Source: a virus
Virus record (IMG/VR): IMGVR_UViG_3300022227_000011
Coordinates: 1-37,882 of that record
Direction: 5' to 3' (one strand)
Length of the DNA: 37,882 nt
The translations under genes were made by a program, and so were the position numbers. The notes beneath the pieces were generated by a model. It searched no databases, was not told where the DNA came from, and worked only from the letters and a program-made list of their open reading frames with translations. Shown here in pieces: positions 3,230-37,882 of this stretch. Numbering within the stretch: position 1 is the first letter of the stretch; each line of letters starts with the position of its first letter.

Positions 3230-3777
3230 TTTGCAACTTTCCGCTTTTTCGAATCACACTTATAATTATACTCGTAAATCTTATTACCACCAAAGTTATT
3301 GAAGACACACCGAACACTATTAAGCAATCCATCCAAACATCTGATAAAACTTGATTTCTTAATAAATGTAGAAACGATACAACTATGAATAACAATAATG
3401 ATATATTTATAACTATCATGCATAAACGTTGCATTTCCTCCGCTCCACACGCAATCATTAGACATAATCAACTGATAAAATATTAAAACGGTGACAAAGA
3501 ACATTCTTAACTTGTCTCTTAGTTCAATATTGCCTATTTTAGAATAGTAAAATGTTAATGCAAAACTATATATTAACGCCCACGACATGTGCATAAATAC
3601 GCCGTGTTGGTAATACATACCCCACGCGAAAAATGGTGATCTACCGACAAACTCAGATATCACACACGCAAAAAACCACATGGTAGCATCTCTATTATAT
3701 ACAGTTGCTACTACATAGATTATTACGAAGTACAGTAACGTTAAGCTATGCACTGTCTTTTTCTTTTTGTTCAACAA
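3226..3777 (-). CDS. Multi-pass membrane protein of unknown function
   Basis: 183 aa with about five hydrophobic stretches (roughly residues 14-27, 33-46, 63-79, 90-106 and 123-139) and a Lys-rich C-terminus, so likely an inner-membrane protein. The start used is a TTG with GGAAG upstream, inside the end of the 45-aa gene; a later in-frame ATG at residue 33 would lose the first membrane segment. Function unknown; its coupling to the coiled-coil/anchor protein suggests the two work together. Confidence 0.55.
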   Translation of the reverse strand: MLNKKKKTVHSLTLLYFVIIYVVATVYNRDATMWFFACVISEFVGRSPFFAWGMYYQHGVFMHMSWALIYSFALTFYYSKIGNIELRDKLRMFFVTVLIFYQLIMSNDCVWSGGNATFMHDSYKYIIIVIHSCIVSTFIKKSSFIRCLDGLLNSVRCVFNNFGGNKIYEYNYKCDSKKRKVAK

Positions 3778-9310: not shown

Positions 9311-9500
9311 CTCAGATACTAAACACATAACAACACGACTAGATCAGTGTATGTCAATTTTAGAAAAACATTTAGATAAAAGTCTTAGTTTGGATGATAT
9401 GGCTAAACGACCAGAATATATGAATTACACAATTTTATCTATGGTTAAACATCGGATCGAAGAAGGAGAAGAAGAAGAAGAAGAAGAAGAAAAAAAATAA
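9297..9500 (+). CDS. Small acidic protein with Glu-rich tail (67 aa)
   Basis: Overlaps the end of the methyltransferase gene by 14 bases and is the last gene of the rightward early operon. The N-terminal two thirds look helical (HITTRLDQCMSILEKHLDKSLSLDDM), and the C-terminus is a run of Glu encoded by an imperfect GAA trinucleotide repeat. Family not recognised; the acidic tail could mimic DNA or mediate protein contacts. Confidence 0.55.
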   Translation: MNLSDSDTKHITTRLDQCMSILEKHLDKSLSLDDMAKRPEYMNYTILSMVKHRIEEGEEEEEEEEKK

Positions 9501-9538
9501 CCCACTGGGTGATAATGGGTTAAAATTAAATTATGTGA

Positions 9539-9622: not shown

Positions 9623-9660
9623 AACCTTTGCTTAAGTAAATAACCTTTGCTTAAGTAAAT
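9623..9660. repeat. 19-bp tandem duplication at the end of the Gp49-family gene
   Basis: The 19-bp unit AACCTTTGCTTAAGTAAAT occurs twice head to tail (9623-9641 and 9642-9660) with no mismatch. It covers the last codons of the gene at 9632-9925 and changes its C-terminal frame. Confidence 0.9.
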
Positions 9661-9925
9661 AACCTTCCAAAGCCCAGATCTTCTGCCTAGCCATATCAAA
9701 AGATTTCTTTTCGCCTAGTTCCTTATTAAAATTTTCAGGGCTGGCGCAAGCGCTTTCCCCTGTTACAGTAAATCCATTTACCAACGTAACACAGCACACA
9801 GTAAGAGTGGATTCAGTGATGTAGTGCTCAACTCGACTGATTACGCCGCCTATCATTTTAGGCGTTAGGCGTGGAGCGTTAAGGTTTTTTTCTTGGATTT
9901 CTTGCTCTATTTCTTGTTCGTTCAT
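9632..9925 (-). CDS. Gp49 family protein, C-terminus altered
   Basis: 97 aa. The pattern APRLTPKMI, then CVTLVNGFTVTGESACASPENFN, then the near-C-terminal KIWALEGYLLKQRL is diagnostic for the phage Gp49 family (PF13876); its function is unknown. A 19-bp tandem duplication places a stop three codons after the shared KQRL. Read without the second unit, the protein would continue FDNKVGS before its stop. It is the last gene of the leftward four-gene early operon. Confidence 0.85.
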   Translation of the reverse strand: MNEQEIEQEIQEKNLNAPRLTPKMIGGVISRVEHYITESTLTVCCVTLVNGFTVTGESACASPENFNKELGEKKSFDMARQKIWALEGYLLKQRLFT

Positions 9926-9965
9926 TTTAAGTACTCTTGGTTGTTAAAGTTTATTGTTAGCTTAA

Positions 9966-10163
9966 CTAATGCTTTAAGTGTATCATTAGCTGCTTCAAGA
10001 AAAATTTTCTCTCTTTTTTAACTCTGTGCATCTCTCCCTCTATCTGGCGCACCTCGTCTTCACTATCAACTAAATTCTGTAAATTCGCTACTTCAAGATC
10101 TTTTTTAACTCTTTGTCTCTCTTCTTCTAACTGTTTTATCTTGTCTTTAGCAAACAATGGCAT
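9966..10163 (-). CDS. Small coiled-coil protein (65 aa)
   Basis: Starts MPLFAKDKIKQLEEERQRVKK and is almost entirely charged and helical, with a clear heptad pattern over residues 8-55. Its start overlaps the end of the upstream gene by 28 bases. No family recognised. Confidence 0.55.
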   Translation of the reverse strand: MPLFAKDKIKQLEEERQRVKKDLEVANLQNLVDSEDEVRQIEGEMHRVKKERKFFLKQLMIHLKH

Positions 10164-10402
10164 TTAATATGCCCATTACCATTTAATTTTAATGGTAACA
10201 TTTCGTGAGGCTTTGTAACTCTATTAGGTTTTAACCCTCTTCTTTTCTTGAGGTTGAACAAGAAACCATCACCAGCATCTAAAACTTTAATTTTCTTATT
10301 TACAATCTCAACATCACAGCCAAACCTTAACTTGTGCTGTAATTTTCTAGGTGTAACTTTTATTAAACTTCTAGGCACAATCTGACCTTTTCTTTTAATC
10401 AT
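10136..10402 (-). CDS. Basic hypothetical protein (88 aa)
   Basis: ATG with GAGGAAT upstream. The product is strongly basic (MIKRKGQIVPRSLIKVTPRKLQHKL...), beta-rich in the middle and ends with HIKCHCLLKTR. A nucleic-acid-binding role is plausible from charge only. It lies four bases after the stop of the previous gene. Confidence 0.55.
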   Translation of the reverse strand: MIKRKGQIVPRSLIKVTPRKLQHKLRFGCDVEIVNKKIKVLDAGDGFLFNLKKRRGLKPNRVTKPHEMLPLKLNGNGHIKCHCLLKTR

Positions 10403-10405
10403 TAT

Positions 10406-10741
10406 TTATTCCTCGAGCATCGTATCAGCAAAATGATAACGCCAGGCTTTGATTAGTGCCATTTCGCCTTTAGGTAAAGCAACTTGAGTAACGTTTTTTT
10501 TATAAAAATTTGATGGAACACAGGATTCGATGACACGATAGTAATCTTCATTAGTCATGTGTTTTTGTGAAAATTCAATCTTAAACCACTCTGGCACATC
10601 TGGCGCATTCATAGCGAACACTTCTCGCTTAGTTAAACCCGTACAACACCCACCATTAAACTCTATACCAATATTACTACAGTGATAAGGTGCTCCATTC
10701 TCATTTACTATAGGTCTTGCTGGCATGTCTTTATTCTTCAT
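10406..10741 (-). CDS. Phage hypothetical protein with TGLTKREVFA motif (111 aa)
   Basis: Starts MKNKDMPARPIVNENG with GAGGAA upstream; an in-frame ATG 11 codons earlier lies inside the inverted repeat. The CCTGLTKREVFAMNAPD segment and the C-terminal ALIKAWRYHFADTMLEE match a very common type of small phage early protein with 'TGLTKREYFA' and a trailing helix, whose function is unknown to me. First gene of the leftward operon driven by the promoter in the left repeat arm. Confidence 0.65.
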   Translation of the reverse strand: MKNKDMPARPIVNENGAPYHCSNIGIEFNGGCCTGLTKREVFAMNAPDVPEWFKIEFSQKHMTNEDYYRVIESCVPSNFYKKNVTQVALPKGEMALIKAWRYHFADTMLEE

Positions 10742-10772
10742 TGTTTTATTCCTCATTTGTATTTGAATGTTC

Positions 10773-10801
10773 ATAGTATCAAAAGGAACTTGACTTGTCC
10801 A
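10773..10801 (-). promoter_or_regulatory. Leftward promoter in left arm
   Basis: On the minus strand TGGACA (10796-10801), 17-base spacer, TACTAT (10773-10778) with a TGA just ahead of the -10 (extended -10). It drives the 10741-9632 operon. The same sequence in the right arm points rightwards. Confidence 0.7.
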
Positions 10802-10818
10802 GATGTTATATATATATT
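10790..10818 (+). promoter_or_regulatory. Rightward promoter in left arm (replication operon)
   Basis: TTGACT (10790-10795), 17-base spacer, TATATT (10813-10818), about 35 bases before the ribbon-helix-helix gene. Confidence 0.65.
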
Positions 10819-10828
10819 ATATGGACAA
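10795..10828. promoter_or_regulatory. Putative operator dyad TTGTCCA-N20-TGGACAA
   Basis: Perfect seven-base inverted repeat around a 20-base AT-rich core. One half-site covers the leftward -35 and the other lies just past the rightward -10, so a bound protein could control both promoters. The adjacent ribbon-helix-helix gene is the natural candidate for the binding protein. Confidence 0.55.
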
Positions 10829-10852
10829 TCACAAATACATTAAGGCGAAAAA

Positions 10853-11038
10853 ATGAAAGAGTTACATGTACTATTCCCAACAAAACAACACTTGCAAATT
10901 TCTGATCTGGTAGATAATACAAAGATTAAAAAATCTAAAGTTGCTAGAGCAGCGTTACAAATTGGTTTAGAGATAATAAGAAAGTCAGATAAAAGGGAGG
11001 AAGTGATCGCAATCAATGATCTTAAAGCGCAAAACTAA
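10853..11038 (+). CDS. Ribbon-helix-helix (Arc/CopG-like) DNA-binding protein
   Basis: 61 aa. The order fits an RHH fold: a short beta strand (KELHVLFP), helix A (KQHLQISDLVDNTKI), then the turn KKSKVARAALQIGLEIIRK as helix B with the small residues at the turn. It is basic and of the usual length. It is the first gene after the left repeat arm, so autoregulation through the TTGTCCA dyads in both arms is a reasonable inference. Confidence 0.7.
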   Translation: MKELHVLFPTKQHLQISDLVDNTKIKKSKVARAALQIGLEIIRKSDKREEVIAINDLKAQN

Positions 11039-11046
11039 AAGTAAAA

Positions 11047-11062
11047 CCCGACCGCAATCGGG
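11047..11062 (+). other. Small hairpin between RHH gene and DUF1376 gene
   Basis: CCCGA and TCGGG form a five-base-pair stem with a six-base loop in the 56-base gap. No T run follows, so it is not a standard terminator; it may act on mRNA stability or translation. Confidence 0.35.
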
Positions 11063-11094
11063 ATACTATGTAACATTTCGAGGTAATTATACCA

Positions 11095-11856
11095 ATGAAT
11101 TATTATAAACGCCACATAGGTGATTATCACAAAAAGGCTGGAAGGTTAACCATGATACAGCACGGAGCGTATACGCTTTTAATTGACGCGTGTTATGACC
11201 GTGAACGATTTCCGACTAGGGAAGAGGCTATCGAATGGTTATGGGCTGGAACAAAGGAAGAAATAGAATCTATTGATTTTGTTTTAGCTAAATTCTTTGT
11301 AGAAAAAGAAGGTAAGTTTATACAAAAACGGATAGAAGAAGAGGTAAAAAACTATACTAAAAACGCTGAAACAAACAAGAGAATTGCTATTGAACGTGAA
11401 GAAAAACGAAGACTTAAGAGCACGAACCGTGCAACTAGCGTGAACGAACCGTGCACGAACCGCCACCTAACCACTAACCAAGAACCACTAACCACTAACC
11501 AAGAACCTAATAATAAGACTAGTGATAAATCACGTATCAACAATCAGCAGGTAGTAGATGTTTATCACGAAATATTACCTATGGTTCCAAGTGTGAGAGT
11601 TTTAGCGCAGAAACGTAAAAAAAATATAAAGACTTTTTTTAATAAACGAGCTAAAGAATTAAAAAAAGAATTCACGATAGAAAATTTTAGAATGTACCTG
11701 TTGTACATTAAAGAAAATTGTACATGGATGCTAGAAGACAGGTACGGAAACGATGGTAAATTTCATAAAGTTAAAGACTTTGATTATTTCTTGACTGACG
11801 ATTGTTATATCAAAGTAAAAGAAGATAGACACAACGATCACAAGCCGCAGGGTTAA
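11095..11856 (+). CDS. DUF1376 (YdaU-like) replication protein
   Basis: 253 aa. Residues 1-75 are a classic DUF1376 domain: YYKRHIGDYHKKAGRLTMIQHGAYTLLIDACYDRE and the EEAIEWLWAG block. A charged linker contains two exact seven-residue repeats (LTTNQEP), encoded by a 21-bp tandem repeat at 11467-11508. The C-terminal third is helical and basic. DUF1376 proteins sit next to DnaB or DnaC-type genes in many phages and are taken as replication initiators or helicase-loading partners; the four-base gap to the helicase gene fits this. Confidence 0.82.
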   Translation: MNYYKRHIGDYHKKAGRLTMIQHGAYTLLIDACYDRERFPTREEAIEWLWAGTKEEIESIDFVLAKFFVEKEGKFIQKRIEEEVKNYTKNAETNKRIAIEREEKRRLKSTNRATSVNEPCTNRHLTTNQEPLTTNQEPNNKTSDKSRINNQQVVDVYHEILPMVPSVRVLAQKRKKNIKTFFNKRAKELKKEFTIENFRMYLLYIKENCTWMLEDRYGNDGKFHKVKDFDYFLTDDCYIKVKEDRHNDHKPQG

Positions 11857-11860
11857 AAAA

Positions 11861-13270
11861 ATGATTTATGACGAACAACTAGAACAAAATATCCTAGGAT
11901 CGATAATGTATCTCAAGGGTTACGGTGATTCAGTAGATTTAGCCTTAGACACATTAAAACCAGTAGATTTCTATTTTTTTAATAACAGATCTATTTTTAG
12001 CGCAATGTTAGACCTGAAAAAAAAGAACTTAAACCCTGATTTTTCAGCAGTTTCAGGACATAGAGAAATAAACAGAAATCAAGATCCTCTATTTTTTTAT
12101 GTAATGGAGTTATTTAAAAATACATCGAGCGGCCTGAACTTAGTTCACTGGATAGAATCATTAAGTAAAGTATCTGAATTGCGAAGAACTCAAGATATTG
12201 TAAATAACATAAGTCAAATAATAAGCGACAACAAAGACTTAGAAGAAAAACTTTTAGAAATAAATACTTTATTTGATGTTGATATTGGAGTTAACCCTAA
12301 TGCTGACACTGGAGCTAAGCACATATCTAGCCACATAAGCGACTATGTGGACTACCTTGACAAACGATGGAATAAGCCGGACGAGGTCGTTTTTACAACT
12401 GGCATAGATGATCTAGATAAAATCCTAGGCGGTGGCTTTGAGATTGGTCTTCATGCGATAGCGGCTAGGCCTAAAATGGGTAAAACTGAGCTTATGGTTA
12501 AAATGATAAACCATTTTGCAATAGATCGAGAGCTGCCGATTTACATAGGTACACTAGAAATGGCAGGGGAACAGATAGTACACAGAATGACTAGTGCGCT
12601 ATCTAGGGTTGATAAAGACGAGATAAAAAATAATTTTACAGTTGAAGGTGTTTATGACGATTTAAGCAAATCTATTTTTTCTAAAGCTTTAATGGATTTA
12701 CAAAATACTAATACTTACATTGATGATAGACACAACAACACAGTAAAAAAAATAAGAAGAGAACTTTTAAAAGTGCAAAAAAAGCACGGTTATGTTGGAG
12801 GTGTGTTTATTGATTACTTGGGTTTGTTGAGCAGTGATGGAGCGCATGATCGACATGATTTATCAATAGCGGCCATGACTAGAGCTTTAAAAGGCATGTC
12901 AAAAGAGTTTAAATGCCCCGTGGTGCTACTTTTGCAACTAAATCGTAGCTTAGAAGCCAGAAACGAAAAAAAGCCGATACCGAGCGATTCACGAGACTCT
13001 GGGGCAATTGAGCAAGATGTGGATTCATGGACGGCAATTTATAGAGATTCGGTATACAACACAGAAAGCCCGTGGGGTGCAATAACTGAAATCATCGTCA
13101 GGCTTAACAGGCATGGAGACACAGGAACTTGTTACCAATTATTGACTGGACACGGATTTAAGAACGCTGATGAATCGAAGGTAGCCAAGCTGCTACACGA
13201 TGCAGAGGTTAAAGAATCTGAAAAGAATAAAAAATATAAAGGCCATCAAGAAGAAGACAAGGGTTTTTAA
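11861..13270 (+). CDS. dnaB: DnaB-type replicative DNA helicase
   Basis: 469 aa hexameric helicase. The N-terminal domain (about 1-130) is followed by a RecA-like core: TTGIDDLDKILGGGF near 179-193, Walker A ARPKMGKTE near 202-210, the catalytic Glu in TLEM near 231-234, Walker B GVFIDYL near 314-320 with D318, and the LLLQLNR sensor near 356-362, then RDSGAIEQDVD. Length and motifs are normal for phage DnaB. With the DUF1376 protein it forms the replication core of the genome. Confidence 0.94.
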   Translation: MIYDEQLEQNILGSIMYLKGYGDSVDLALDTLKPVDFYFFNNRSIFSAMLDLKKKNLNPDFSAVSGHREINRNQDPLFFYVMELFKNTSSGLNLVHWIESLSKVSELRRTQDIVNNISQIISDNKDLEEKLLEINTLFDVDIGVNPNADTGAKHISSHISDYVDYLDKRWNKPDEVVFTTGIDDLDKILGGGFEIGLHAIAARPKMGKTELMVKMINHFAIDRELPIYIGTLEMAGEQIVHRMTSALSRVDKDEIKNNFTVEGVYDDLSKSIFSKALMDLQNTNTYIDDRHNNTVKKIRRELLKVQKKHGYVGGVFIDYLGLLSSDGAHDRHDLSIAAMTRALKGMSKEFKCPVVLLLQLNRSLEARNEKKPIPSDSRDSGAIEQDVDSWTAIYRDSVYNTESPWGAITEIIVRLNRHGDTGTCYQLLTGHGFKNADESKVAKLLHDAEVKESEKNKKYKGHQEEDKGF

Positions 13271-13300
13271 TGAATAAATATAAAAATATGGGGTTTAATT

Positions 13301-13639
13301 ATGTTTTTTGTTTTCGGTGTGTCTAGATTTGAAGCGGTAAAAAACGCTAATAAATCAACTAGTATTTATCACAAGGGCGGACAGTATAGTGATGAAGAGT
13401 TCAGAAAAATCATAAAAAACAAGTCTGATATTGCATTTGACAAAATGAAAGCAGAAAAAATATCAGGATCATTTTCTACCCCTAGTCTAGCTATGGATTT
13501 TATAAAGATAGCTAGGGAATCACCAGATGATTTTAGAGATTTGAAAATAAAATACAGGAAACCAACGGGTAAGATTAACGCAAAAACCAAAAAAAATGTT
13601 ATGGAGTGGGTGATTTATTGCGGCGAAAAAACTTATTAA
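13301..13639 (+). CDS. Hypothetical protein (112 aa)
   Basis: GGGG upstream of the ATG. Product begins MFFVFGVSRFEAVKNANKSTS and is basic, with a YSDEEFRKIIKNKSDIAFDKMKAEK helix pair and a C-terminal strand VMEWVIYCGEKTY. No family recognised. Lies between helicase and NinB-like genes on the replication operon. Confidence 0.6.
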   Translation: MFFVFGVSRFEAVKNANKSTSIYHKGGQYSDEEFRKIIKNKSDIAFDKMKAEKISGSFSTPSLAMDFIKIARESPDDFRDLKIKYRKPTGKINAKTKKNVMEWVIYCGEKTY

Positions 13640-13657
13640 AAGGGAGGTTAGGATTGT

Positions 13658-14092
13658 ATGAAGCAATACAAATTAACATCGTTAAATACAGAGCAAGTTT
13701 TTAGCGAAGTAAAAAAGCGACTAAAGCCAAATGAAAAATATATTTTATCGATTAAAAAGGACGTTAAAAGATCAATTAAAGCTAATGCTCAAGTTCATGT
13801 TTGGATACCAAAAATAGCCGCATACACTGGCAACGATATAAAAACAACTGAGTTAATTTGTAAGTTAGATCATGGACTGCCAATTTTGTTAAATGATGAT
13901 AATCATGGAGCTAGAACTGAATGGGTACTGAACGAGTTAAATTTTTTTAGTCGTAGTTATAACAATCAAGTGAAAATAATGGCAGGGTTTGCAGTTACGA
14001 GCCTTTTTAATACTGAACAACACAATCAATACAGAGACTCAATACAGCAATTTTGGCTAGAACATGGATTAGAGCTAAATTATCTAAAATAA
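13658..14092 (+). CDS. NinB/Orf-like recombination protein (tentative)
   Basis: 144 aa. The middle has a SIKANAQVHVWIPKIAAYTGNDIKTTEL segment and the end has NTEQHNQYRDSIQQFWLEHGLEL, an overall layout like phage NinB/Orf-type proteins, which bind single-stranded DNA and act as recombination mediators; the similarity is in spacing and local motifs only. GGGAGG is upstream of the ATG. It ends eight bases before the right repeat arm. It could instead be an unrelated replication accessory. Confidence 0.5.
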   Translation: MKQYKLTSLNTEQVFSEVKKRLKPNEKYILSIKKDVKRSIKANAQVHVWIPKIAAYTGNDIKTTELICKLDHGLPILLNDDNHGARTEWVLNELNFFSRSYNNQVKIMAGFAVTSLFNTEQHNQYRDSIQQFWLEHGLELNYLK

Positions 14093-14122
14093 AGCTTGCA
14101 ATGTAATTGTGATTGTCCATAT

Positions 14123-14151
14123 AATATATATATAACATCTGGACAAGTCAA
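14123..14151 (-). promoter_or_regulatory. Leftward promoter in right arm (antisense to NinB-like gene)
   Basis: Minus-strand TTGACT (14146-14151), 17-base spacer, TATATT (14123-14128). It points into the 3' end of the replication module, where no minus-strand gene exists, so it would make antisense RNA in the present orientation. Confidence 0.5.
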
Positions 14152-14168
14152 GTTCCTTTTGATACTAT
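14140..14168 (+). promoter_or_regulatory. Rightward promoter in right arm (accessory/lysis operon)
   Basis: TGGACA (14140-14145), 17-base spacer, TACTAT (14163-14168) with TGA ahead of the -10. It lies 34 bases before the gene at 14202 and is the only clear promoter ahead of the lysis block. Confidence 0.65.
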
Positions 14169-14201
14169 GAACATTCAAATTTAAATTACTTGGTGAATGA
14201 T

Positions 14202-14648
14202 ATGAGTGTAGAGATTTGTAGTGAGACAACTTACAAAGTAGTGATTGATCTTAGCAAATATAGTAAAGAAGAAGTTAATATTTTTTGGTTCAAAATGCTA
14301 GAAAGCGATAATACTATTTTAAAAAAAGCTGCTAAAAAAGGTTTAAATGAAGTTGAACCTTGTCACCCTTCCATTGCTCAATATTATTTACAGCAATATC
14401 TAAATGGTGACCTTGTTTTAAATGGATGGTTTGGTGGAAAATGGGAGATTGGTGAAATATTAGATAAAGAAGCTGCAAACGATATAAAGGCAAAAATAAA
14501 TGAATTTCTAGGAATTACAAATAGACCTACGCTTCACGAGTGCGATTATAGTGAGGATGTATTTGAGGAAAAGATGGAATTATATTGTCTTGAAAAATTA
14601 AAGCTTAAAGAACATGCTCTTTATAAACCACTACCAATATTAAGATGA
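14202..14648 (+). CDS. Hypothetical protein (148 aa)
   Basis: Start MSVEICSETTYKVVIDL has GGTGA upstream; a TTG four codons earlier is less likely. The protein is acidic, with aromatic WFGGKWEIGEILDKEAANDIKAKINEF in the centre. No recognised family or membrane segment. First gene after the right repeat arm. Confidence 0.55.
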   Translation: MSVEICSETTYKVVIDLSKYSKEEVNIFWFKMLESDNTILKKAAKKGLNEVEPCHPSIAQYYLQQYLNGDLVLNGWFGGKWEIGEILDKEAANDIKAKINEFLGITNRPTLHECDYSEDVFEEKMELYCLEKLKLKEHALYKPLPILR

Positions 14649-14675
14649 AATAATTAAATTACTGGGCAAATAACA

Positions 14676-15320
14676 ATGAACAATAATCAAAAAGAGTTAC
14701 TGAATCTTATAGGCGCAGATGAAAATACGCCAGAAGATAAATTAATTAAATTGGGTGAAGATGCCGGGATTGATATATTAAAAACATTAAACCCTACTAA
14801 TCCACTGCTGATTAAAGAAGAAGACAGAATAAGTTTAGATGAAGCTAAGAGGCTTTTAATGGAGTGGGCTTCGGTCAGTGATTCGGTCAGGTATTCGGTC
14901 TGGGATTTGGTCTGGGATTCGGTCAGGTATTCGGTCAGGTATTCGGTCTGGGATTTGGTCTGGGATTCGGTCAGGGCTTCGGTCTGGGATTCGGTCAGGT
15001 ATTCGGTCTGGGATTTGGTCGGGGCTTACGCATCATCAATATTCACAAACGTTAAAAAGTGGGACGGTATCGAGCACGAAGAAGGAGTGAACCCCTTTCA
15101 AAGTGGCATTGATCTAGTAGAGGGTGGCTATATTGCTAGTTTAGACGGCAACAAATGGCGGTTACACACTGGTAAAGATGCTGATGTGGTTTGGGAGGGC
15201 ACGATTGAGGATTTGAACAATAAAGAACAAGATCTAGAAACAGAAAACAAACATCTAAAAGATAAAGTGGAAAACTTTGAATATCAGCTTGAACAAATTA
15301 AAAAAATAATCTGGGGTTAG
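14676..15320 (+). CDS. Protein with 13-unit tetrapeptide repeat and coiled-coil tail
   Basis: 214 aa in three parts. Residues 1-64 are a soluble helical region; residues about 65-116 are 13 tandem copies of a four-residue unit of the form [D/Y/A][S/L]V[R/W]; the C-terminal part has a Trp/Gly-rich segment followed by a coiled coil (about 180-210). The repeat alternates polar, Ser/Leu, Val and Arg/Trp, so the unit could build a regular beta or amphipathic array. The function is unknown. Confidence 0.65.
   Translation: MNNNQKELLNLIGADENTPEDKLIKLGEDAGIDILKTLNPTNPLLIKEEDRISLDEAKRLLMEWASVSDSVRYSVWDLVWDSVRYSVRYSVWDLVWDSVRASVWDSVRYSVWDLVGAYASSIFTNVKKWDGIEHEEGVNPFQSGIDLVEGGYIASLDGNKWRLHTGKDADVVWEGTIEDLNNKEQDLETENKHLKDKVENFEYQLEQIKKIIWG
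14868..15023 (+). repeat. 12-bp coding tandem repeat, 13 units
   Basis: Thirteen consecutive 12-bp units of the form (G/T)ATTCGGTC(A/T)GG with substitutions at a few fixed positions. As the unit is a multiple of three, copy-number changes would keep the frame. The adjacent +1 frame is also free of stops because of the periodicity. Confidence 0.9.
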
Positions 15321-15321
15321 T

Positions 15322-15546
15322 GTGAGAAAAAAGAAAATTAGAATTGATAGGCTTAGAAAGAAACAGGCTATAGATTGGATTAAAGCTAACGATCCAGAAT
15401 GTGAATTTATTTTGTCTAGTGGATTAAGTGATCAGATTTGTTTTATTGCTGACAATCTTAATAACTTCGGTTATTGCTATCAGGATGGACATATACAAGT
15501 CACACCGAACAAAAAGACCAAGCCGCTGAACTGGGGTTTAGTGTGA
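15322..15546 (+). CDS. Hypothetical basic protein (74 aa)
   Basis: Begins at GTG (MRKKKIRIDRLRKKQAIDWIK) with GGGG six bases upstream, immediately after the stop of the repeat protein. Ends in NWGLV with its TGA overlapping the GTG of the next gene. No family recognised. The junction shares the GGGG(T)TTAGTGTGA motif seen at three gene boundaries in this operon. Confidence 0.55.
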   Translation: MRKKKIRIDRLRKKQAIDWIKANDPECEFILSSGLSDQICFIADNLNNFGYCYQDGHIQVTPNKKTKPLNWGLV

Positions 15547-15791
15547 AAATATCAGTTAATGTGTCACAAGAAATAATACAAAAAGATTTTGATATATTTA
15601 GACTTCTAACCATATTAACAATTGCTGGTTTAATTGTTTCCGCTTTAGGTTTAATCGGGATTGATAATATACATAGCCATTATTTAATAATAATAGATAA
15701 ACTTAATCAGGATTGGAAACCTACTAATTTAGACCACTTAATAATTATAGTTTTATTGTGTTTGAATCTACTAAGAAAAGGTAAGAAATAA
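15543..15791 (+). CDS. Two-segment membrane protein (82 aa), holin/antiholin candidate
   Basis: GTG start at the repeated GGGGTTTAGTGTGA junction; an upstream in-frame ATG would overlap the previous gene by over 70 bases. Two hydrophobic segments near residues 20-40 and 63-77, charged loops, and a Lys-rich end. Place directly ahead of the lysozyme suggests a part in lysis, but a second holin-like protein follows the lysozyme, so this may be an antiholin or accessory. Confidence 0.55.
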   Translation: MKISVNVSQEIIQKDFDIFRLLTILTIAGLIVSALGLIGIDNIHSHYLIIIDKLNQDWKPTNLDHLIIIVLLCLNLLRKGKK

Positions 15792-15792
15792 A

Positions 15793-16449
15793 ATGACCGA
15801 ACAGCAAAGTTTTGATGAAGCTTATAAATACTTAATTAAAGAACTACAAACTATAAATTTAGAAGCTGTAGGTATTTATGATAGTACAGTTATATATATA
15901 ATCGCAAAAATTCAAGAAGGAAAGAACTACGCAAAATTAACTGGTTTAAAAGTTCCTCCTTCAATAGCTGATAAATACAAAGTTAAATTAGAGGGGGTTA
16001 GTGTGAGTGACATAAAAATGAATAACTACGAAGAAGCAAAAAAAATAGCGGTTCCTATGTTGAAGCTGCATGAAGGAGTTGAGACTAAACCATACTACTG
16101 CCCTGCTGGTAAGCTCACGATAGGAGTAGGGCGCAACTTAGAGAGTATTGGCATAACAGAAGATGAAGCAGAATATCTACTAGACAACGACATAAACAGA
16201 GTAGTTGAAGAGCTAGATCAAAACGTACCATTACAGGATATTAGCAGCAATCGAATGGCGGCTTTAATCGATATGTGTTTTAACATTGGCCTAACCAGTT
16301 TTTTGAAATTTAAAAAAATGTTAGCTGCTCTTGATAATCAGGATTACGAATTAGCAGCCGAAGAAATGTTAGATTCTGATTGGGCTGAACAAGTCGGCAA
16401 ACGAGCTATAACTTTATCTGAAATATTGAGGACTGATAATGTCACATAA
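15793..16449 (+). CDS. Phage lysozyme (GH24) fused to an upstream small frame
   Basis: The open frame codes for 218 aa. Residues from about 78 are a complete GH24 endolysin with the triad E94, C103 and T109 in the spacing E-8-C-5-T (LHEG... YYCPAGKLTIGVG), plus the NRMAALIDMCFNIG helix, enough to cleave peptidoglycan. No signal-anchor is evident, so it needs a holin. The first ~69 residues (MTEQQSFDEAYKYL...) look like a separate small protein. A GTG at 16003, preceded by GGGGG, is the likely lysozyme start, giving 148 aa, the usual length. With one G fewer in that run the upstream frame would end GLV-stop, as its neighbour does. Confidence 0.85.
   Translation: MTEQQSFDEAYKYLIKELQTINLEAVGIYDSTVIYIIAKIQEGKNYAKLTGLKVPPSIADKYKVKLEGVSVSDIKMNNYEEAKKIAVPMLKLHEGVETKPYYCPAGKLTIGVGRNLESIGITEDEAEYLLDNDINRVVEELDQNVPLQDISSNRMAALIDMCFNIGLTSFLKFKKMLAALDNQDYELAAEEMLDSDWAEQVGKRAITLSEILRTDNVT
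15993..16005 (+). promoter_or_regulatory. Internal ribosome binding site and GTG start of the lysozyme
   Basis: GGGGGTTAGTGTGAG repeats the junction motif that starts the genes at 15322 and 15543. The GGGGG run is well spaced from GTG (16003-16005), which begins the lysozyme-length product. Confidence 0.55.
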
Positions 16450-16627
16450 AAGATGGACTAGTCGTAAGTTTTGGACGGTTAACATTTGGCAGTTAGTAGC
16501 ATCATTCATGTTATGGTTTGACAAAATAGACGGGGGTACATACGCAATGCTAACAGCCGGATTGATCGGTATATATGCGGCTGCTAATTTCGGTGATAAA
16601 AAAATAGAGGTCAAAGAAGATGTTTAA
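16439..16627 (+). CDS. Holin-like small membrane protein
   Basis: 62 aa. WTSRKFWTVNIWQLVASFMLWFDKIDGGTYAMLTAGLIGIYAAANF gives two membrane segments with a short loop and a charged C-terminus, like small phage holins with a 'KIDGGTW..L....LGLY.AAN' motif. It overlaps the lysozyme stop by 11 bases and the Rz gene by eight. Predicted to form lesions in the inner membrane that release the lysozyme. Confidence 0.7.
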   Translation: MSHKRWTSRKFWTVNIWQLVASFMLWFDKIDGGTYAMLTAGLIGIYAAANFGDKKIEVKEDV

Positions 16628-16904
16628 TACTCTAAAACTTTGGGCTGGTGGCGCGATAATGGCTCTAGTCGGTGTGTTTGTTGCTGTATTCAAATATCGC
16701 TCTAACAAAATAGAACGCCTTGAATCTACTAATGAAACTCTTAGAAAAAACAACGGCAAACTTAAAGATGATATCAAAAGTAAACAAAAAGAGATTAAAA
16801 CTCGTGAAACTGTTAACCAGATTATGGCTAATGATGATGCCGCTATCAATGCTAGTGAGTTGCGCATTAGAGCCGCAAAAAGAGATAGTGATAAAAACGG
16901 TTAG
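16620..16904 (+). CDS. Rz: Rz-like inner membrane spanin
   Basis: 94 aa with an N-terminal membrane segment (residues about 8-25, AGGAIMALVGVFVAVF) and a long periplasmic coiled coil (about 28-90), the i-spanin layout. Contains a nested Rz1-like gene in the +1 frame, as in lambda. Spans the periplasm with Rz1 to fuse the membranes at lysis. Confidence 0.8.
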   Translation: MFNTLKLWAGGAIMALVGVFVAVFKYRSNKIERLESTNETLRKNNGKLKDDIKSKQKEIKTRETVNQIMANDDAAINASELRIRAAKRDSDKNG

Positions 16905-17037
16905 CGATTGCAATATAGTACCGTACATCAATATTACAGTAGCTCAAATTGATGAGGTCATGAGATATAAAAAACTGATACCCCTAATTATAGAAATTAA
17001 TCAGCAAACTAAAATAATAGATTTATGTAAGAAATAG
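16768..17037 (+). CDS. Rz1: Rz1-like outer membrane lipoprotein spanin
   Basis: 89 aa. A Lys-rich start and hydrophobic core end in the lipobox LVSC, so Cys32 would be lipidated after signal peptidase II cleavage. Starts inside Rz in the +1 frame and runs past it by 133 bases. Other in-frame starts exist upstream (16732, TTG 16720), so the exact start is not fixed. The mature part is not Pro-rich, unlike lambda Rz1. Confidence 0.65.
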   Translation: MISKVNKKRLKLVKLLTRLWLMMMPLSMLVSCALEPQKEIVIKTVSDCNIVPYINITVAQIDEVMRYKKLIPLIIEINQQTKIIDLCKK

Positions 17038-17057
17038 CCCCAAACGGGGCTTTATTT
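17036..17057. terminator. Terminator between lysis and tail operons
   Basis: AGCCCC (17036-17041) and GGGGCT (17046-17051) form a six-base-pair stem with an AAAC loop, followed by TTTATTT on the plus strand. An AAATAA tract on the other side makes it partly bidirectional. It separates convergent genes. Confidence 0.75.
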
Positions 17058-33228: not shown

Positions 33229-33792
33229 ATGAAAAAATACAGCGTGATATATGCAGATCCACCTTGGTCATTTAATTCGAAAAAAACAGGCGGATCAATG
33301 AAGAGTGGAGCGGCTAGTCAATACCCAACCATGAGCAGTGAAGACTTAAAGAATTTAGATGTTGAATCAATATCTAATGATAGCTCATTGCTTGTAATGT
33401 GGTATGTAGGGAGTCAGTCGCAAGAAGCCTTAGACTTATGCAGAGCTTGGGGGTTTAGGTGTGTAAATATCAACGGGTTTGTGTGGCGTAAACTTACAAA
33501 GCATGGAAAGGATCATTTCGGAATGGGATCTATAACTAGGGCAGGTAGCGAATCCGCCTTGGTTGGAATCAAAGGCAGGACTGGGGGAATTATAAAAGAT
33601 CGAGGAGTTAGATCTGTAATAAGCGCTAAGACTGGTAAGCACAGCCAAAAGCCCCACGATTTTCGGCAAGCAATAGAAAAACTTTGCGGCGAAACTTCTA
33701 GATTAGAAATGTTCGCAAGAGAAAAATTCGACGGTTGGGATGTATTCGGTAATGAGGTTGAAGGCTCTATAAAAATAGGTAATAAAAAATGA
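33229..33792 (+). CDS. MT-A70-like adenine DNA methyltransferase
   Basis: 187 aa from an ATG with GAGA upstream; a longer frame has no good start. Starts KKYSVIYADPPWSF with the DPPW catalytic motif at residues 10-13, the MT-A70 signature, then SSLLVMWYVGSQSQEALDL, a VNINGFVWRKLTK strand and an end HSQKPHDFRQAIEKLCG...LEMFARE. This type methylates N6 of adenine in DNA. It opens the plus-strand cassette inside the head genes. Confidence 0.9.
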   Translation: MKKYSVIYADPPWSFNSKKTGGSMKSGAASQYPTMSSEDLKNLDVESISNDSSLLVMWYVGSQSQEALDLCRAWGFRCVNINGFVWRKLTKHGKDHFGMGSITRAGSESALVGIKGRTGGIIKDRGVRSVISAKTGKHSQKPHDFRQAIEKLCGETSRLEMFAREKFDGWDVFGNEVEGSIKIGNKK

Positions 33793-33867
33793 TATACACA
33801 ATTAAAGAAATGGCTGAGATTGCTGGTATTGCTGAAAGTTCAATGCGCTCTAGAGTTAAACGAATAT
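33770..33867 (+). repeat. Direct repeat of the HTH gene start, copy 1
   Basis: About 98 bases covering the last codons of the methyltransferase gene and the truncated HTH frame, repeated at 34273-34370 with about a dozen mismatches (offset 503). The intervening gene (33979-34275) lies between the copies. Confidence 0.8.
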
Positions 33868-33978: not shown

Positions 33979-34275
33979 ATGGCAATAGTAAAGATAGATG
34001 CAAAACACAAAAACGCTAAACGAAACACCATAGATTATCAAGCAAGGAATCAGTTAATTAAGATGTTTGAGGATGCAGGTTGTACAGTCCAGGTTATGAA
34101 TAATAAAAATCATCACTTAAAAGTAACTGGAAATGCTCGTGTTGTAGAATTCTATCCGACTACAGGTACTATTAACGCTAATAGAACATGCGATAGTAAA
34201 CCATACACAGCGCGAGGCATGAGTTTAGCTAGAGCTGTAAATCGTGTTGTTGGATTAGCGACACATGGTTATTAA
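33979..34275 (+). CDS. Small basic protein, possible HicA-like fold (98 aa)
   Basis: MAIVKIDAKHKNAKRNTIDYQARNQLIKMFEDAGCTVQVMNNKNHHLKVTG. A helix, three strands and a helix with NHHLKV and RVVEFYPTTGTINA loosely recall HicA mRNA-interferase-like or dsRNA-binding folds, in which a His in a G/N-H-H segment is catalytic. This likeness is weak; the protein may be a simple nucleic-acid-binding accessory. AAAGAG is upstream. Confidence 0.5.
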   Translation: MAIVKIDAKHKNAKRNTIDYQARNQLIKMFEDAGCTVQVMNNKNHHLKVTGNARVVEFYPTTGTINANRTCDSKPYTARGMSLARAVNRVVGLATHGY

Positions 34276-34370
34276 AAATAGGTAATAAAAAATGATATAC
34301 ACGATTAAAGAAATGGCCAAGATTGCTGGGATTACTGAAAGTAATATGCGCATTAGAGTTAAACAGATGG
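34273..34370 (+). repeat. Direct repeat of the HTH gene start, copy 2
   Basis: Full-length partner of the repeat at 33770-33867. It begins in the last codon of the small basic gene and runs to about codon 26 of the HTH gene. Confidence 0.8.
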
Positions 34371-36393: not shown

Positions 36394-37866
36394 TTAAGAC
36401 TCGTCATCAGGGTCCATTCTCAAATCAATACCGGTGTAACCGCTATTCTTGTCCTTTATTAACTTCTCTCTTATGTCGATATTATCTATAGCTGACGCAT
36501 TATAAAGCATTGTATCAGCATTAGCGTTATTAACTCTAACTGTAGATTTATCTATATCTGACATTATTTTTAAGGACCTCCAGTTCAACTCTATTTCTAG
36601 ATTCTTAATCCCTAAATCTCCAGATAACTCGGACGGTATTAATCTAGCGTAATGAGCCTCGTATATTTCAGTCATTTCATTTCCTTGCAATGCCTCGACG
36701 TCCTCTAAATACATATCGTTTTCCTCGCTTCCACCACTAAAACCAGTCGAAGAAAATCCAAACTTTACCGCTGGGATTCCTAACTCTGCTCTAACTAATT
36801 GGTATTGAGTCGTTATCACGTTATCTAGATCTGTTAAGTTAGTATCTATTTGATTTATTTCTTCTTCCTTGCCTGCTATTGTTACGCCGTAATTATCTCT
36901 AAACTCGTTAGCTAGTTCCAAGTTTTGTCTCACTTTTCTTTTATTTGCTTGAACTTTATCTAGATCCATCTTTCTTATAAGTAATCTTTTTGTCATTGTT
37001 AGCTGTGGTGCTTCGTTAGCCGTCCGCTCTGCTGCGTAAACTCGTTCATAAATTTTTTGAGTGAGCGGCACTCCTCCATATCGATAAGTCGGTTTTAAAT
37101 AATCGGCCACTTCATCACCTTTCAATATGACAAAATGCGAACGATGGTATCTTTTGCCGTTTAGATTCCAATATGTAGGGTTGTAAAAATTTATAGATGT
37201 AGGATCTATTAAATCCGTATCATCTAACTCTGGTGTTAGATGGTACGGATCTATTTGTGACATTCCTTCATATTTACCATTAGAAAAAGCATCAGGATTA
37301 AACGGTTGGGAATAATCGAAATTTGGATCGGTGTTTTTAAACAGAATATGACGAACACCAAAAACATTCCTAAAGGTTACACCCTCTACCATATTTTCCT
37401 TAAGTTTATATTTTTTATCTAATTTTGTTACTATTTTAATTTGTTCAAGGCTGAGATTGTCACCGCTGCTTAACTCTATATCCCAACCTTTCTTAACAGC
37501 ATCTTTAGGTTTCATTGCGCAACCTTTGGCAACTAGCGGTTGCTGACCGATCACAGCACACGGATAATAACCAATAAAAGAAGAGCTAGCTATGTAGTAG
37601 CTTAAGACATACGGATTAACATTTTCATAATTTGCGCTATACTGTGCAGACTCACCTATGCAAGAATCCATCGCCCCATTTTTAACAGTTTTGTTTTGCG
37701 GTTTAGGCGCTGTCCTCTGTATTGCATGATCTCTTATATATTGCTTTCTGAGATCAAGACTAACTAAAGCCCCATCGTTATCACCTTCATCTTTAGCAAC
37801 ATCCGTCGAGTACTCACTAGGCTCTAATTTGGCAGCCTGTTTGTTTTTTTCTTTTCGCCAAACCAT
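36394..37866 (-). CDS. Portal protein (DUF1073 family)
   Basis: 490 aa here. It forms the ring at one capsid vertex for DNA entry. Typical parts are NVNPYVLSYYIASSSFIGYYPCAVIGQQPLVAKGCAMKPKDAVKKGWDIEL, HRSHFVILKGDEVADYLKPTYRYGGVPLTQKIYERVYAAERTANEAPQL and the C-terminal LNWRSLKIMSD. The database name of this domain now mentions Acb1; that enzyme's HxT motifs are not seen here and the position shows a portal. The true start is probably the ATG restored in the left overlap copy (MKWFWRK), so the protein would be 492 aa and span the closure. Confidence 0.88.
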   Translation of the reverse strand: MVWRKEKNKQAAKLEPSEYSTDVAKDEGDNDGALVSLDLRKQYIRDHAIQRTAPKPQNKTVKNGAMDSCIGESAQYSANYENVNPYVLSYYIASSSFIGYYPCAVIGQQPLVAKGCAMKPKDAVKKGWDIELSSGDNLSLEQIKIVTKLDKKYKLKENMVEGVTFRNVFGVRHILFKNTDPNFDYSQPFNPDAFSNGKYEGMSQIDPYHLTPELDDTDLIDPTSINFYNPTYWNLNGKRYHRSHFVILKGDEVADYLKPTYRYGGVPLTQKIYERVYAAERTANEAPQLTMTKRLLIRKMDLDKVQANKRKVRQNLELANEFRDNYGVTIAGKEEEINQIDTNLTDLDNVITTQYQLVRAELGIPAVKFGFSSTGFSGGSEENDMYLEDVEALQGNEMTEIYEAHYARLIPSELSGDLGIKNLEIELNWRSLKIMSDIDKSTVRVNNANADTMLYNASAIDNIDIREKLIKDKNSGYTGIDLRMDPDDES

Positions 37867-37882
37867 TTCATTTTATTAACCC
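37737..37882. repeat. Terminal overlap, right copy
   Basis: Same as 1-147 with one A missing from the run at 37860-37862. This copy breaks the portal start codon frame. Confidence 0.85.

Follow-up and report, generated by a model that had tools for sequence, protein, structure and literature searches.

A mirrored copy of a predicted promoter region at the far end of a phage replication operon

Gene organization and inverted repeat at the locus

The window, by which we mean the whole stretch of DNA that was analysed, is an IMG/VR virus record 37,882 bases long, with PHROG matches that include a tail sheath, a portal, a head protease and other structural genes. The ends of the contig match each other (positions 1–126 and 37737–37862), and therefore the genome is circular or terminally redundant, with a possible assembly slip at the ends. 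The complete end stretches, 1–147 and 37737–37882, match over 126 nt and then go on with small length differences.

Five genes on the plus strand form a replication operon that is bracketed by the two arms of an inverted repeat. The first gene (10853–11038) encodes a 61-residue ribbon-helix-helix (RHH)-like protein, a candidate repressor that was recognized from its homologues and their alignments. It is followed by genes for a DUF1376/O-like replication initiator (11095–11856) and a DnaB-like helicase (11861–13270), both assigned by profile matches, a small gene matching phrog_20424 with an E-value of 7e-5 (13301–13639), and the gene of a NinB/Orf-like recombination mediator (13658–14092), which is the last before the right arm. 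The initiator, helicase and NinB/Orf-like protein between the arms justify the name "replication module" that the initial annotation had given to this block.

To the left of the replication operon, four small genes on the minus strand (10406–10741, 10136–10402, 9966–10163 and 9632–9925) constitute a leftward operon spanning 9632–10741. The gene that starts at position 10741 has the ribosome-binding site GAGG, and its full-length homologues with approximately 44% identity in Vibrio phages show that it is real. On the other side of the replication operon, an accessory and lysis operon (14202–17051, plus strand) contains two accessory genes for which no homologues were found (14202–14648, with a likely start at 14202, and 14676–15320), an endolysin gene (15793–16449) and an Rz-like gene (16620–16904). 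Both outward operons finish at terminator-like sites, located at 9498–9522 past the leftward operon and at 17036–17051 at the end of the rightward one. The second accessory gene contains a 12-bp tandem repeat (14865–15035), which is translated into a four-residue repeat (SVRY/SVWD); the library scans returned no homologues of the encoded protein. Elsewhere in the window, two 92-nt stretches that are 89% alike (33770–33861 and 34273–34364) lie at the starts of adjoining small genes, and a weaker third match to them is located at 16838–16872.

A repeat search of the window identified the arms at 10755–10841 and 14100–14186, each 87 nt long, 97% complementary (84 of 87 positions matching) and separated by a spacer of 3258 nt. 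The 81-bp inverted repeat described in the initial annotation (10761–10841 and 14100–14180) is upheld by direct alignment, in which 80 of the 81 positions match. In register, the alignment consists of 74 identical bases (10761–10834), a mismatch between positions 10835 and 14106, and six further identical bases. The complete arms thus differ by this single internal mismatch and two mismatches at the edges, and the similarity stops sharply at either edge. The runner-up among the inverted pairs of the window spans 29 nt and is 79% alike. Of the 154 sequences compared (1.79 Mb), only two contained exact inverted repeats with arms of 30 nt or longer placed more than 300 nt apart, namely the window and one unrelated locus (L043), in which a 74-nt exact repeat (12066–12139 and 12759–12832) has its arms approximately 620 nt apart. 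The identity of 80 of 81 positions indicates that the copy is recent or that the two arms have been kept alike, which would fit either the recent duplication or the gene conversion suggested in the initial annotation.

The arms fit between ribosome-binding sites or gene ends. The left arm occupies the intergenic space between the divergent genes 10406–10741 and 10853–11038, whereas the right arm begins 7 nt past the stop codon of the NinB-like gene and ends ahead of the ribosome-binding site of the gene starting at 14202.

Predicted promoters and operators in the arms

Each arm contains two promoter-like sites arranged back to back, with their −35 elements adjacent. The pairs TTGACT-17-TATATT and TGGACA-17-(TGA)TACTAT were found as the initial annotation had claimed. 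In the left arm, the former is directed inward, to the replication operon (10790–10818, plus strand), and the latter, with its TGn extension, is directed outward and would serve the leftward operon (10773–10801, minus strand). In the right arm, the copy of the outward site is directed rightward (14140–14168, plus strand), towards the accessory and lysis operon, and the copy of the replication promoter (14123–14151, minus strand) runs antisense to the NinB-like gene. The dyad TTGTCCA-N20-TGGACAA, a candidate operator, was confirmed in both arms, at 10795–10828, where it overlaps the −10 element of the inward site and the −35 element of the outward site, and as a copy at 14113–14146. The two arm dyads are the only TGTCC-N18..26-GGACA pairs in the window.

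The initial annotation did not consider that neither the dyad nor the promoter matches exceed chance on their own. The region contains 42 promoter-like matches, and shuffled sequences contained 45.2 ± 6.8, which means that there is no excess. A dyad of equal quality arises in approximately 39% of shuffles. Therefore, the evidence for function has to come from the position of the elements and from comparison with related genomes.

The position of the left arm is informative. It fills the gap between the gene starts at 10741 on the minus strand and 10853 on the plus strand, and since both genes have homologues, the arm must hold divergent promoters. The start at 10741 leaves no other room upstream, and therefore a promoter directed leftward is required by position. 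The left arm is thus predicted to be a complete divergent promoter region, and the right arm is a near-identical inverted copy of the same region. The activity of the outward promoters in both arms is predicted from their sequence, position and conservation.

The right arm complicates this layout. Its inward site has the sequence of the replication promoter, and it should give rise to antisense RNA unless it is repressed or blocked. The initial annotation overlooked this fourth promoter, which runs into the replication operon from its 3′ end, and proposed that one switch governs the leftward, replication and accessory/lysis operons at once. Coordinate control of the three operons through identical operators is plausible, but because of the fourth promoter the arrangement cannot be simply "three operons at once".

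Candidate repressor and related replication operons

The candidate repressor, also not noticed in the initial annotation, is the 61-residue product of the first replication-operon gene. Its homologues, with sequence identities of 34–57%, are encoded in five phage records (PS_L5, SL25, Vibrio 1.029.O, Vibrio 1.054.O and XCL1123) and in the IMG/VR loci L139, L140 and L143–L147. Gene neighbours were read in the five phage records, L139 and L140, and in all seven the homologue directly precedes the replication operon, so that they share the RHH-like first gene with the window. The alignment of the family displays a strand-helix-helix sequence pattern, with a short strand followed by the segments LQISDL and SKVARAALQIGL. 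The Pfam RHH_1 and Arc profiles did not match the family in 11 records at E-values up to 10, whereas they did match in control genomes, and a single relative, L147, reaches the PHROG family of Arc-like repressors, weakly, with an E-value of 0.03. The predicted structure of the 61-residue protein is a poor model (pLDDT of 71), with which a fold search returned no match. We infer that the protein is a putative repressor that would bind the dyads of the arms. Searches of viral contigs with the helicase or the 61-residue protein alone identified no relatives, and neither did profile scans of the contigs with the alignments.

The promoter of the replication operon is conserved in position ahead of the first gene. 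Of the 12 upstream regions compared, 11 have the sequence TTGAC 53–63 nt ahead of the start codon of the first gene; XCL1123 is the exception, and the regions of SL25 and L143 are near-identical. The background frequency of TTGAC in the compared sequences is approximately 0.1 per 100 nt. The comparison thus supports the prediction of the inward promoter of the replication operon. Repeats of the type TGTN0-3ACA are present in eight of 11 upstream regions, with nine sites against 0.5 expected, for a motif that was picked after inspection. Such TGT/ACA-type repeats are often private to the promoter: GTACGTAC occurs only twice in the 34 kb of SL25, both times at the promoter; the promoter repeat TGTATACA occurs once in Vibrio 1.054.O; GTG[TG]ACAC of L144 is present at the promoter and nowhere else in its compared sequence; and TTGTAACA-N20-TGTTACAA occurs once in XCL1123, its 20-nt spacer being equal in length to that of the window's dyad. 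Separately, dispersed 16-bp palindromes GTTATA-N4-TATAAC are found in PS_L5 (19021, 29293 and 32207) and SL25 (8662, 13327, 19846, 22581 and 30019), which suggests a second, genome-wide regulator in these phages.

The replication operons of the relatives share the position of TTGAC (except for XCL1123) and, in most cases, the TGT/ACA-type repeats, but they have a single copy of the control region, whereas the window has two. The paired arms for which the initial annotation proposed to search related genomes were absent from all the relatives examined. The basic arrangement can do without a second arm, since a single copy serves in relatives that share both the first gene and the replication operon. 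In PS_L5, SL25, Vibrio 1.029.O and Vibrio 1.054.O, the neighbouring gene upstream is co-directional, so that these phages lack the divergent operon of the window, and in XCL1123 an upstream gene is leftward, but more than 500 nt away. Both the tight divergent layout and the second arm look particular to this phage.

The 23-nt core of the arm had no match in other viral contigs, and the structural relatives Shewanella 1/41, Vibrio PGA, V039C and BT-1011 lack exact inverted repeats with arms of 30 nt or longer more than 300 nt apart. A search of viral contigs for the dyad combined with the −35 element returned a single match, in the 86.7-kb contig L148, which was set aside as chance or unrelated; the stretch examined contained no long inverted repeat. 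In this otherwise unrelated contig, a similar dyad with a −35 element (TTGACTTGTCCAGA..TCTGGACAA, 3515–3551) lies directly before an ATG. When the dyad pattern was relaxed, the matches included too many unrelated contigs. Our search of the literature identified no phage whose replication operon is surrounded by a mirrored promoter region, which is weak evidence of novelty, since subscription journals were thinly covered.

Possible functions of the mirrored arms

Based on the gene layout and the comparison with relatives, a mechanism can be proposed. We consider it moderately probable that the promoter/operator region of an autoregulated replication operon has been copied in mirror image, that its outward promoter also drives the accessory and lysis operon, and that one repressor controls three operons. 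Each arm would correspond to the whole divergent promoter/operator region. Host RNA polymerase would fire the promoters early in infection, the outward promoter of the left arm starting the leftward operon and that of the inverted region at the 3′ end of the replication operon starting the accessory and lysis operon. The first gene of the replication operon would yield the small RHH-like DNA-binding protein, which upon accumulation may bind the identical dyads and lower the transcription of the replication, leftward and rightward operons together. It would perhaps also hold the two arms in a loop, in the way that the CI repressor of phage lambda links OL and OR. Unless repressed, the right arm's inward promoter would produce antisense RNA into the replication operon. 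The edges of the arms, which coincide with ribosome-binding sites and with the stop codon of the NinB-like gene, speak for this mechanism, whereas the convergent duplicate of the replication promoter speaks against it, as it should interfere with the operon.

The main rival explanation, which we regard as rather unlikely although it has to be taken seriously, is that recombination or template switching has recently produced the right arm as a by-product, that this copy has little if any function as yet, and that only the left arm works. The near identity of the arms fits a recent origin, the second copy is absent from the relatives examined, the phage encodes RecT, NinB-like and Holliday-junction proteins, and the additional inward promoter looks costly. 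However, the copy begins just past the NinB stop codon and ends just short of the ribosome-binding site of a co-directional operon, which is a useful place for a promoter, and its outward half is intact.

The recombination proteins also bear on the possibility that the arms are sites of homologous inversion of the replication module, which would then exist in two orientations with the same promoters but with read-through to the other neighbour. The symmetry of the arms and their 74 bp of perfect inverted identity at a distance of 3.3 kb would permit such an exchange. However, no flipped form turned up among the assembled sequences, there is no invertase among the proteins scanned, and the assembled orientation, with replication and lysis genes co-directional, resembles that of Vibrio 1.029.O and Vibrio 1.054.O; we consider the explanation improbable. 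We speculate, with slightly less confidence still, that the arms make the module orientation-neutral, so that flips would retain the promoter, and one self-limiting repressor, acting on identical operators, would balance sense against antisense transcription in the replication genes and the flanking operons.

It is very improbable that the arms are replication elements, an origin or a terminus, instead of control regions. They do bracket the replication genes, but the relatives keep just the single copy linked to the promoter, and a better candidate for the origin is a cluster of short direct repeats (ACGAACCGTGCA.. and CTAACCACTAACCAAGAACC twice) at 11422–11507 inside the initiator gene, a likely origin like that within lambda O. 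We attach even less weight to an assembly artefact or chimaera, which might be suspected in a metagenomic contig from a virus record of unverified assembly: the edges of the arms are at gene boundaries, the arms differ by one internal and two edge mismatches, and the gene order fits that of the relatives. The terminal inverted repeats of a transposon-like element, suggested by a compact gene block between inverted repeats, can be dismissed, as there is no transposase between the arms, no target duplication flanks them, and the relatives conserve this block as their replication operon.

If the mirrored, autoregulated promoter/operator region is functional, the phage has brought further operons under an early switch that was already there, through duplication of the entire control region in mirror image, and the locus offers a compact natural system in which to study identical promoters that converge on a replication operon. 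It would also point to a family of small candidate repressors, encoded first in phage replication operons, which the library models do not name.

The components of the locus are familiar in kind, whereas the mirrored copy was not found in the relatives examined. In the immunity region of phage lambda, the outward early promoters with their operators, pL-OL and pR-OR, are located at the ends of the block with the repressor gene, the operators are alike and inverted, and looping between them is possible. The window has a similar predicted anatomy, with like, inverted candidate operators and putative outward promoters around a block that contains the candidate repressor gene. However, the block in lambda is the immunity region, whereas in the window it is the replication operon; the lambda operators are related but not near-identical, whereas each arm of the window corresponds to a full divergent promoter region; and the lambda repressor is a helix-turn-helix protein that maintains lysogeny, whereas the candidate of the window is RHH-like.

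RelB of Escherichia coli is a small, autoregulated RHH repressor encoded in the operon it represses (PMC2812701), and the candidate of the window, which is RHH-like only, resembles it as a small putative repressor in its own operon; its abstract describes no inverted second copy at the end of the operon, such as the window has. The conjugation switch of plasmid pLS20 combines overlapping divergent promoters, one regulator, two operators and looping (PMC4207663), but it controls plasmid conjugation genes and its second operator is near the first, whereas in the window an inverted copy of the whole region is 3.3 kb away. In plasmid RA3, the replication module is enclosed by the long repeats DR1 and DR2, with a promoter directed back at the module (PMC9455977); DR1 and DR2 are arrays of short direct repeats of differing make-up, whereas the arms of the window are inverted copies of one predicted promoter region.
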